Origin: Accumulibacter sp.
GTDB taxonomy: Bacteria; Pseudomonadota; Gammaproteobacteria; Burkholderiales; Rhodocyclaceae
Direction: 5' to 3'
NCBI RefSeq assembly: GCF_023806625.1
Contig: NZ_JAMTDX010000019.1
Span: 1 to 35,061 of the forward strand
Length of the DNA: 35,061 nucleotides
The notes under the pieces were generated by a model. It searched no databases. It was not told where the DNA came from and saw nothing but the letters and a program-made list of their open reading frames with translations. The number at the start of each line of letters is the position of its first letter. The first letter of the stretch is position 1. Shown in pieces: positions 1,979 through 12,833 of the stretch. Position numbers and translations under genes: made by a program.

Positions 1979-2010
1979 CGCGGAAGGCAGACTTGCGTCT
2001 GCCTTCCGCG
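1979..2010 (-). terminator. Strong hairpin, probable intrinsic terminator of the 12-codon unit
   Basis: The arms CGCGGAAGGCAGAC (1979-1992) and GTCTGCCTTCCGCG (1997-2010) are perfect reverse complements, giving a 14-bp stem with a 4-nt loop. Read on the minus strand it starts about 35 nt after the stop of the 12-codon ORF and is followed by TTTGTGGGTT, a weak U-tract. It would separate the small transcript from the ABC gene downstream. Confidence 0.75.
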
Positions 2011-2045
2011 CCTTGGTCAGGACAGGCACCACCTGCCATCGGGTC

Positions 2046-2084
2046 TTACTTCTTGGGTGCCTTTTTCTTTTTCTGGGTCGCCAT
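2046..2084 (-). CDS. 12-residue lysine-rich micro-ORF, MATQKKKKAPKK
   Basis: An ATG at 2084 opens 12 sense codons and a TAA at 2046. The product would be MATQKKKKAPKK, with six Lys and no hydrophobic segment. The case for expression rests on its surroundings. There is a near-ideal Shine-Dalgarno GAAGGAG (2091-2097) six nt before ATG, a promoter-like TTGCTG-N17-TAGAAT about 65-90 bp upstream, and a 14-bp-stem hairpin 35 nt after the stop. The predicted transcript is about 170 nt. Lysine-rich basic tails occur in bacterial histone-like proteins, but at 12 residues no family can be assigned. It may instead be a leader peptide, an encoded decoy within a small RNA, or a dual-function RNA. The frame, signals and hairpin are seen directly; expression is inferred. 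Confidence 0.5.
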   Translation of the reverse strand: MATQKKKKAPKK

Positions 2085-2090
2085 GATGAG

Positions 2091-2097
2091 CTCCTTC
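2091..2097 (-). promoter_or_regulatory. Strong ribosome-binding site of the micro-ORF
   Basis: GAAGGAG on the minus strand lies six nt before the ATG at 2084. It is among the best Shine-Dalgarno matches in the window and is the main reason for calling so short a frame. Confidence 0.7.
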
Positions 2098-2146
2098 AAC
2101 GAGGGTGGATGGAAGTTGCGGTCGCCGAAGCCGATTCGGCGCCGGC

Positions 2147-2175
2147 ATTCTAGTTGAGCGGATGAATGCCAGCAA
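2147..2175 (-). promoter_or_regulatory. Predicted sigma70 promoter of the micro-ORF
   Basis: On the minus strand TTGCTG (2170-2175) and TAGAAT (2147-2152) are separated by 17 bp. The -10 differs from TATAAT at one base and the -35 keeps TTG. The predicted start is near 2140. The leader contains a small hairpin, GCCGAA/TTCGGC (2124-2140). There is no other gene between this site and the ABC exporter stop at 2327. Confidence 0.55.
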
Positions 2176-2326: not shown

Positions 2327-4129
2327 TCAGGCGACAAACTGGAGCGCGGCGAGTCGCGCGTACAGCCCGCCGAGCTTGATCAGTTCTTCGTGCCTGCCGG
2401 CCTCGACCACTCGCCCCTGATCGAGGACAAAGATGCGGTCGGCACGTTGCACGGTAGCCAGACGGTGGGCGATGACGATCGTCGTCCGTCCGGCCATCGC
2501 CGCATCCAGTGCCTGCTGGACGATGCGCTCGCTCTCCGCGTCGAGACTGCTCGTCGCCTCGTCGAGCAGAAGGAGGGGCGCATCCTTCAGAATGGCCCGG
2601 GCGATCGCCACACGCTGCCGCTGTCCACCCGAGAGCCTGAGGCCCCGCTCACCGACGAAGGTCCGCAAACGGTCGGGCAACTGGCCTGCGAATTCATCGA
2701 CGAAAGCCGCCTGCGCAGCCTTGCGCACCTCATCCTCGTCGGCTGCCGGCCGGCCGTAGCGAATGTTGTCGGAAATGCTTCCCGAGAAGATCACCGCCTC
2801 CTGCGGCACGACCGCGACGTGCGAACGCAGATCGGAGAGCCGCAGTCGACGCAGGTCCTGGCCGTCGATCGCGAGCGAACCGCCGTCGACGTCGTAGAAG
2901 CGTTGCAGCAGCTGGAAAACGGTCGTCTTGCCCGCTCCCGAAGGCCCGACCAGGGCAACCGTCTGACCGGCCGCAATGGTCAAGCAGAGCCCGTGCAGCA
3001 CAGGTTGCGCCGGCCGCGACGGATAGGCGAAGCTGACGTCGGCAAAGCTCACCCGAAGACCGCCCGACACTCCCGGCAGGGACACCGGCTGCTCGGGATC
3101 GGCAACCGGAGAACGGGCGGCAAGCAGTTCCAGCAGGCGTTCGCTGGCTCCCGAGGCGCGCAACAGGTCGCTCCAGACCTCGGCGAGCACCCCGACGCTG
3201 CCCGCAATGACGATCACGTAGAGGGCTGTCTGGCTCAACTCGCCAGCGCTGATCTCTCCGGCGAACACCGCCTGAACACCGCCGTAGAGTCCGTAGAGAA
3301 GCGAACCGAACACGCCGACGATGACGAAGGCCGTCAATGCCGAACGCGTGCGGGCACGGTGCATCGAAGTCCGGAAGGCCTGCTCGTTGGCCTCGGCGAA
3401 GCGCGCCGTCTCTTCGACCTCGCGAGTGTAGCTCTGGACGACCGGGATGGCGTGCAGCATTTCCCCGGCGAGGCCGCTCGTGTCCGCCAGACGATCCTGT
3501 GCGGCTCGTGATAGGCGGCGCACGCGGCGACCTATCACCACTGCCGGGAAGACGAACAGCACGACGATGCCGGTGACGGTCAGCACGAGACGGGGCGTCG
3601 AGCTGAGCAGCATGGTCAGGCCGCCAACGAACAGCACGAGGTTGCGCATCCCCATGCTCAGGCTCGAACCCACCGCGTGGTGGATGACCGTGGTATCGGC
3701 AGTCAGTCGCGACAGGACTTCACCGGTCCTCAGTGTCTCGAAGAACTGAGGACTCTGACGCAGGACATGACCATAGACGGCCAGACGGAGGTCCGCGGTC
3801 ACCCGCTCGCCGATCCAGCTCATCATGTAGAAGCGGCCGGCCGTCGCCAGCCCGAGAACGGCAGCCCCTGCGAAGAGCAGCAGGAAGTGTCGGCCGACCA
3901 GGGACCGACCCGGATCGCTGCCCGCCCGAGCAACCACCAGGCCGCCATCGACGAGGCCCTTCACCGCGTACGGCAAGGCCAGTGTCGTCGCCGCAGCGAT
4001 CAGCAGCAGCAGCAACGCCAGGAAGACCTGCGCACGATAGGGCCTGACGTAGGGCAACAACCCGGACAACGCCCTGAGGCGTCTTACCGGCGTCGCGGAC
4101 GGGGCGGCATCAGCCGCGCCTGAGCGCAC
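2327..4129 (-). CDS. MsbA-related ABC exporter, fused permease and ATPase
   Basis: This 600-residue half-transporter has an N-terminal six-helix exporter domain (about residues 20-320) and a complete nucleotide-binding domain. Visible motifs are Walker A GPSGAGKTT, a Q-loop region VVPQEAVIFSGSI, signature LSGGQRQRVAIARA, Walker B LLLLDEATSSLD and an H-loop IVIAHRL. The N-terminal LLPYVRPYR followed by ALPYAVKGLVDGG fits the MsbA-related subfamily (as in TIGR02204) rather than MsbA proper. It probably works as an inner-membrane homodimer exporting a lipid or amphiphile; the substrate is unknown. Its start lies 25 bp after the MAPEG stop, so it probably ends the long minus-strand operon. Confidence 0.9.
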   Translation of the reverse strand: MRSGAADAAPSATPVRRLRALSGLLPYVRPYRAQVFLALLLLLIAAATTLALPYAVKGLVDGGLVVARAGSDPGRSLVGRHFLLLFAGAAVLGLATAGRFYMMSWIGERVTADLRLAVYGHVLRQSPQFFETLRTGEVLSRLTADTTVIHHAVGSSLSMGMRNLVLFVGGLTMLLSSTPRLVLTVTGIVVLFVFPAVVIGRRVRRLSRAAQDRLADTSGLAGEMLHAIPVVQSYTREVEETARFAEANEQAFRTSMHRARTRSALTAFVIVGVFGSLLYGLYGGVQAVFAGEISAGELSQTALYVIVIAGSVGVLAEVWSDLLRASGASERLLELLAARSPVADPEQPVSLPGVSGGLRVSFADVSFAYPSRPAQPVLHGLCLTIAAGQTVALVGPSGAGKTTVFQLLQRFYDVDGGSLAIDGQDLRRLRLSDLRSHVAVVPQEAVIFSGSISDNIRYGRPAADEDEVRKAAQAAFVDEFAGQLPDRLRTFVGERGLRLSGGQRQRVAIARAILKDAPLLLLDEATSSLDAESERIVQQALDAAMAGRTTIVIAHRLATVQRADRIFVLDQGRVVEAGRHEELIKLGGLYARLAALQFVA

Positions 4130-12758: not shown

Positions 12759-12833
12759 GGGCGATTAACTCAGCGGTAGAGTGCCACCTTCACACGGTGG
12801 AAGTCAGTGGTTCGATCCCACTATCGCCCACCA
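12759..12833 (+). tRNA. tRNA-Val (anticodon CAC), CCA encoded
   Basis: All four arms fold. The acceptor is GGGCGAT paired with ATCGCCC (12823-12829). The D-arm is ACTC/GAGT, and the anticodon stem CCACC/GGTGG encloses loop TTCACAC. The T-arm is AGTGG/CCACT with loop TTCGATC. The anticodon CAC reads GUG valine codons. The discriminator is A at 12830 and CCA is encoded at 12831-12833. I found no repeat of the tRNA 3' end elsewhere in the window that would mark an integrated element. Confidence 0.96.

Follow-up and report, generated by a model that had tools for sequence, protein, structure and literature searches.

Lysine-rich micro-ORFs accompany the gene of an ABC-exporter-like protein in two betaproteobacterial groups

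Introduction

In the microcin C cluster of Escherichia coli, a terminator lies between mccA and mccB and the cluster includes an export pump gene, so that mccA combines a micro-ORF with a Shine-Dalgarno (SD) sequence, a terminator directly after it and a pump gene nearby, a layout resembling the one analyzed here (PMC6495379). As described, however, MccA has 7 residues and needs an adenylating enzyme, whereas the loci treated below share no modification gene. Furthermore, MccA is not known as a lysine-rich peptide, and the microcin C pump belongs to another family than the ABC protein of our loci.

The leaderless SIP/LCP communication peptides of Firmicutes (8–9 aa, no secretion signal) are encoded divergently from their partner gene and are still secreted, and one of them has putative ABC-transporter genes downstream (PMC10518010). 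Leaderless short peptides encoded divergently from a partner gene also occur among our loci, but the SIP/LCP peptides are described as aliphatic or aromatic with the receptor RopB as partner, whereas ours are lysine-rich and paired with an ABC protein. For the leaderless peptides of EntDD14 from Enterococcus, an ABC transporter is implicated in export (PMC7332713); EntDD14 differs in being a two-peptide bacteriocin encoded in a larger gene cluster. In Bacillus subtilis, the small ORF bmrB and an intrinsic terminator are located upstream of the ABC transporter genes bmrCD, but bmrB has 53 aa, the terminator lies within the ORF and an antiterminator is predicted (PMC4191407). Among the matches listed in our open-access literature searches, none described a micropeptide–ABC pair of the kind reported here.

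The DNA analyzed in this study (the window) is a stretch of 35,061 nt from Accumulibacter sp. (contig NZ_JAMTDX010000019.1), for which a self-contained gene for a 12-residue lysine-rich peptide had originally been predicted, possibly serving as a functional micropeptide, a leader or a dual-function small RNA. Sequence evidence from related genomes indicates that this micro-ORF is functionally tied to the neighboring gene of an ABC-exporter-like protein.

Results and discussion

Organization of the micro-gene

The promoter-like element, SD sequence, 12-codon frame and 14-bp hairpin of the original prediction were all present as described when their coordinates were re-read; the strand, which had been left unstated, is minus for these and all other features of the locus. 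The micro-ORF (MATQKKKKAPKK, 12 codons, stop codon TAA) extends from 2084 to 2046 and is preceded at a distance of 6 nt by the SD sequence GAAGGAG (2097-2091), with an SD-like sequence also found in most alignment rows of relatives. A -10-like TAGAAT (2152-2147) is located 62 nt before the ATG and, across a 17-nt spacer, is preceded by a weak -35-like TTGCTG (2175-2170) that has no clear counterpart in most relatives. With 8 of 12 consensus matches, TTGCTG-N17-TAGAAT is a plausible promoter of the micro-gene; a promoter scan that needs 9 matches reported none. A short hairpin (hairpin 1; 2021-2037) stands between the stop codon and the terminator-like hairpin (2010-1979; 14-bp stem, 4-nt loop), which in this genome is only terminator-like, as its U-tract (TTTG) is poor. 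Folding of positions 1970-2100 yielded -54.6 kcal/mol (z = -4.2), and 0 of 200 shuffles were equally stable. The sole match of Rfam and tRNA scans of the window was a tRNA-Val at 12759.

The next gene, with a start codon 443 nt downstream of the micro-ORF ATG, encodes the ABC-exporter-like protein of 501 aa (136-1641) and proved to be the constant partner of the micro-ORF. On its other side, the micro-gene is flanked by an MsbA-related ABC exporter gene (2327-4129) that lies outside the system.

Which neighbor the micro-ORF follows

For systematic scans, micro-ORFs were defined by an ATG, an SD-like motif, a length of 8–21 aa, a lysine plus arginine content of at least 40% and at least three lysines. 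Exactly one ORF in the 35-kb window passed these criteria, the MATQKKKKAPKK micro-ORF. Its exact peptide pattern was found only in its own genome among 28 genomes of the genus, and conserved DNA around it was detected in 0 of 60 relatives (E-value 0.001).

Among the 28 genus genomes, the MsbA-like gene was present in 27 and the 501-aa protein in seven. In a scan of 39 loci, each of the five further intact orthologues of the 501-aa protein was accompanied by a lysine/arginine-rich micro-ORF that has an SD-like motif (MATKKKKSKGKAKPAA, MAARKHRKKK, MAARKRRKSRK, MATKKKAKKPAPK and MATTKKKSKKPAPK). In the seventh genome (G008), the ABC gene is interrupted and the micro-ORF persists as a remnant that lacks a start codon. 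A link to the MsbA-like gene was rejected, because the cassette tracks the ABC gene and no micro-ORF of this kind was found within the 1.5-kb flanks of the 26 other MsbA-like loci; the 120 kb around these 26 orthologues contained 0 ORFs passing the criteria.

Survey of 64 ABC-protein loci

A contig search with the 501-aa protein retrieved 64 loci, which were assigned by tree position and record label to a Rhodocyclales type (20 loci; Accumulibacter, Propionivibrio, Dechloromonas, Azonexus and unplaced records), a Comamonadaceae type including other Burkholderiales (21 loci) and an alphaproteobacterial or unplaced group (23 loci). An ORF passing the criteria was present no more than 450 nt upstream of the ABC match at 25 of the 64 loci, and the other 516 kb contained 0. 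A first, strict scan of the loci missed several divergent copies; a relaxed scan disregarded the SD sequence, which is weak in several of them.

All 20 Rhodocyclales-type loci, five of which are from the same genomes as the five intact genus orthologues, carried a lysine-rich micro-ORF of 8–16 aa (e.g., MAKKKKKK) on the same strand just upstream of the ABC gene, with its ATG 105–229 nt ahead of the ABC match start. Lysine-rich micro-ORFs of 10–21 aa were also present at 20 of the 21 Comamonadaceae-type loci, where their placement varied: two were upstream on the same strand (MAKKKGKKKK), 13 were divergent and adjacent (e.g., MNNATAKPKKSKKPAKKAPAK), four were divergent and separated from the ABC gene by another gene and about 2–3 kb, and one was on another contig (L064). 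By reading, the intervening gene was isocitrate dehydrogenase at three of the four distant loci. Both genes are present in the cultured isolates Dechloromonas hankyongensis XY25, Propionivibrio dicarboxylicus DSM 5885, Comamonas granuli NBRC 101663 and Variovorax sp. PCZ-1. The sole Comamonadaceae-type locus without a micro-ORF (L103) has an ABC gene split over frames with no unread bases, while the apparent stops in the ABC genes of L040 and L094 are unread bases (N) and demonstrate no interruption. Beside the ABC genes of the alphaproteobacterial or unplaced group, where some flanks were short, a micro-ORF was recognised in 0 of 23 loci.

Only the ABC gene was widely common to the 64 neighborhoods. 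No other ORF cluster spanned more than nine of them, and neither a common modification or immunity gene nor a widely shared regulator gene was found.

Two features of the nucleotide sequences were noticed during this survey. The MAKKKKKK frames of L049 and L086 are identical at the nucleotide level, although the ABC proteins are on separate branches, and codon choice may thus be constrained there. At the divergent loci among L062-L095, inspection by eye showed a recurrent TGTCAAC motif (GTTGACA when read on the strand of the ABC gene) between micro-ORF and ABC gene; it may represent the ABC gene's -35 box.

Coding selection and RNA elements

Seven alignable Comamonadaceae copies of 21 codons showed a pN of 0.069 and a pS of 0.63 (ratio 0.11), which points to strong selection on the peptide in this one group. 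The ratio was 0.29 for three Propionivibrio copies, two of them identical, and reflects a handful of differences. Changes were thus mostly synonymous, as expected of a genuine peptide gene, in the single group suited to a good test, and the lysine-rich frame is kept in dozens of loci. Accordingly supported is the prediction of a functional micropeptide, and by its sequence features the 12-codon frame MATQKKKKAPKK looks like a genuine coding micro-gene.

The terminator consensus of 19 sequences has 12 pairs, six of which display at least one compensatory change. One terminator type is shared by the Rhodocyclales and two Comamonas-type loci, and another occurs in the divergent group. Of 23 Rhodocyclales-type same-strand cassettes (window included), 20 have a -10-like TANA[AC]T motif at a distance of 42–71 nt ahead of the ATG, and no conserved -35 box was seen in the same-strand cassettes. 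By eye, the 5' UTR of several Rhodocyclales cassettes contains an inverted repeat of variable sequence, seemingly between the -10-like box and the SD sequence.

Association at the genome level

For the genome draws that follow, group names were derived from the loci. The ABC profile matched 14 of 395 genomes drawn from the Rhodocyclaceae, the family of the window. Strong hits (E up to 2.8e-13) of R1, a covariance model of the cassette based on 19 sequences, were obtained for 15 genomes of what appears to be the same draw, namely all 14 ABC carriers and G008, where both genes are decayed. Because R1 was built partly from genomes that it later matched, the informative part of this result is the absence of strong hits in the other 380 genomes.

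With the weaker R1 hits (from E 1.9e-9; counted up to 0.1), 217 of the 395 genomes had a match of some sort. The 15 weak hits that were opened (L132-L146) were rejected as micro-ORFs: 13 were the ends of lysine-rich frames of 64–192 codons and the remaining two had no lysine-rich frame.

The corresponding draw for the Comamonadaceae type (280 genomes from the family of the Variovorax locus L070) contained 11 genomes matched by the ABC profile, and lysine-rich micro-ORFs were found in all 11. Strong R2 hits recovered seven of them, and weaker R2 hits pointed to two more (G802 and G800), which reading confirmed. In G801 the micro-ORF was found by reading, at a distance of about 2 kb to the ABC gene, and in G795 it was found by R1. 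At E up to 1e-4, R2 matched 45 of the 280 genomes, nine of them ABC carriers; 15 of the 36 matched genomes without the ABC gene were opened and rejected, as all hits were the ends of frames of at least 56 codons. An order-level draw of 399 genomes yielded one further ABC carrier (G593), which runs counter to the pattern: R1 gave no hit, and the 17.5 kb surrounding its ABC gene contained no micro-ORF. No relatives of the ABC protein were found in plasmids, phages or viral contigs.

The longer frames encountered in these searches (L132-L143 and L145 in the family of the window; L182-L188, L190-L193 and L195 of the Comamonadaceae type) end in Lys/Glu- or Ala/Lys-rich tails, and several have a signal-peptide-like start (e.g., MNKLLAALVAGLFAVGAFAQ). 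They were picked up on account of a terminator-like hairpin behind the tail, and in G199 two such hits lie about 400 nt apart.

Among 16 alphaproteobacterial or unplaced ABC carriers searched, eight contained lysine-rich micro-ORFs away from the ABC gene, five of them detected by R1 (e.g., MATKKKKAKKKSK) and three added by R3 and reading. In 41 Xanthobacteraceae-type genomes, R3 revealed a lysine-rich micro-ORF or mini-protein of 11–30 residues in four of five known ABC carriers as compared to four of 36 genomes of unknown ABC status (Fisher test; p = 0.003, and 0.013 without the training genome). Since some Alphaproteobacteria of unknown ABC status carry such frames too, we make no claim for this class, and the link between the two genes there is suggestive only. 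Neighboring micro-ORF copies were observed in two ABC carriers: MAKKSKKKAKK occurs twice in G811 (L225, L234), and by reading G809 (L222) contains a MAKKMKKKAKKKK frame and the start of a second copy.

The partner protein

Pfam and NCBIfam matches of the 501-aa protein were confined to its ATPase part, where ABC_tran scored below its cut-off and SMC_N above in the window protein. The membrane part remained without a match, ABC_membrane included, even with the E-value limit raised to 10, a search in which the HMMER filters drop most weak matches, and SbmA_BacA and ABC_membrane_2, the domains of SbmA/BacA-type transporters, were absent from the 12 matches. Matches from a PDB sequence search and from PADLOC (mad3 at 47 bits and weaker ones) were likewise in the ATPase part only. 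The motifs GGNGSGKS, SSGERQ, LLDEWDANLD and SHRD, which we take to be Walker A, signature, Walker B and H-loop, are conserved in the alignment, and most of their columns are kept in a wider alignment.

A structure model based on a 44-member alignment (mean pLDDT 75, pTM 0.66) shows long helices and, after them, a compact ATPase domain. The best solved folds (MsbA, McjD, IrtAB and CydDC) matched with TM scores of about 0.5 or less, which is generic for ABC exporters; the model thus describes an exporter-like half-transporter at the level of the fold family. The protein shares with McjD- and MsbA-type exporters, of which McjD is a peptide exporter, the overall arrangement of membrane domain plus ATPase, but identity in the fold alignments is only about 15%, the membrane part has no Pfam match, and the ATPase domain here contains a disordered acidic loop. 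Residues 404-434 are disordered in the model. In the stretch before the SSGERQ signature, which a motif search could cut from 41 of 65 members, acidic residues outnumber basic ones in 40 (L093 being the exception), and the acidic stretch is also present in alphaproteobacterial members. At position 131 in the membrane domain, 94% of 31 betaproteobacterial-type rows have an acidic residue, versus 8% of 13 alphaproteobacterial or unplaced rows, a difference that is confounded with phylogeny.

In a tree of 58 members, a branch with full support set off the same-strand group, and the divergent group was placed separately. The Comamonas-type pair L061 and L081 fell inside the same-strand (Rhodocyclales) side on a long branch, and both loci have a Rhodocyclales-type terminator and a lysine-rich micro-ORF. 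This combination suggests, with the caution that a long branch demands, that micro-ORF and ABC gene moved together.

Export, regulation and other explanations

The co-occurrence of both genes in two betaproteobacterial groups suggests that the pump handles the peptides. In the reading that we favor, which we consider about equally likely to prove right or wrong, a leaderless polycationic micropeptide works with the adjoining ABC protein and is most likely its exported substrate. Coding selection in one group, the SD and terminator-like architecture, linkage in two groups and the exporter-like model are all consistent with this. The micro-gene would be transcribed and translated from its own signals, and a short transcript that mostly ends at the terminator would yield large amounts of the micropeptide; the ABC exporter would move it out of the cytoplasm, and outside the cell it might act as an extracellular signal, an antagonistic peptide or a polyanion binder. 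For a specific ligand, the large variation of the peptides in sequence and length would be odd, and the ABC carriers with no micro-ORF recognised beside the gene (the 23 alphaproteobacterial or unplaced loci and G593) speak against this reading. Export appears to be the most likely mechanism, and its main rival, a regulatory partnership, is rather unlikely in our view. Here, the micropeptide would stay inside as a regulatory subunit that tunes the activity of the ABC protein by binding the acidic disordered loop before SSGERQ or acidic residues of the membrane domain. Such a partnership fits the co-occurrence, the acidity of the loop in nearly all members, the disorder of residues 404-434 and the acidic position 131 of the betaproteobacterial-type proteins. 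However, the acidic stretch is also found in members without an adjacent micro-ORF, phylogeny alone could account for position 131, and the high output expected from a terminated transcript better suits a substrate. A bacteriocin-like pair, in which the ABC protein exports a self-toxic or antagonistic peptide or protects the producer, would be a special case of the export model. It is compatible with the decay of both genes in G008 and with the interrupted ABC gene of L103, where no micro-ORF was found, and the leaderless EntDD14 offers a precedent for export by an ABC transporter, but that transporter is reported to be ruled out of primary self-immunity (PMC7332713). As no modification or immunity gene is common to the neighborhoods and the lysine-rich sequences are very simple, we regard this variant as improbable.

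The two remaining explanations place the function in the RNA. As a cis-acting leader, the micro-ORF would determine, through translation of its lysine codons, whether transcription passes the terminator and reaches the ABC gene (attenuation), much as bmrB does for bmrCD, and the same-strand order of micro-ORF, terminator-like hairpin and ABC gene in the window and the 20 Rhodocyclales loci would allow this. Unlike bmrB, however, the micro-ORF has divergent copies, 13 adjacent and four with another gene in between, and as such copies are unable to act in cis on the ABC transcript, a general leader role is refuted. For the same-strand group, masking of 12 nt after the stop codon, which covers a single ribosome position (at the stop codon), left the terminator folded in 17 of 17 sequences. 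Hairpin 1 folds in most same-strand cassettes but is very weak in L044, L049 and L050, and arginine replaces much of the lysine in the micro-ORFs of L033 and L034. A leader function is accordingly very unlikely, although the cassette may have a secondary regulatory use in Rhodocyclales. Least probable of all, and hardly to be expected, is an incidental frame within an element that acts as a small RNA or terminator: the hairpin is strong and has compensatory changes, but the low pN/pS ratio of the Comamonadaceae copies and the persistence of the lysine-rich frame across two clades with different terminator sequences argue for the peptide. For the latter reason, the proposed dual-function RNA is not needed either, although it may still apply. 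The gene does have its own signals, as predicted, but it is self-contained only in this sense, being tied to the ABC gene.

Conclusions

Taken further, the export reading describes a two-gene system of Rhodocyclales and Comamonadaceae that may extend to Alphaproteobacteria, where the two genes would be separated. In this system, a near-poly-lysine, leaderless ribosomal peptide of 8–21 residues would be secreted by a dedicated ABC exporter family; in this full form we put it forward tentatively, as a possibility that may well fail. Frames of 8–21 codons are ignored by gene finders, and a peptide gene conserved across families can thus stay unseen. The large partner gene is readily located and provides a handle on the whole family of micro-genes. 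If the peptide is exported, a leaderless polycationic product of this kind would be unusual, and it might function in biofilms, in phosphate or nucleic-acid binding, or in competition among environmental bacteria. If the two-gene secretion reading is true, these micro-genes would represent a new class of secreted peptides that annotation has missed because of their shortness.
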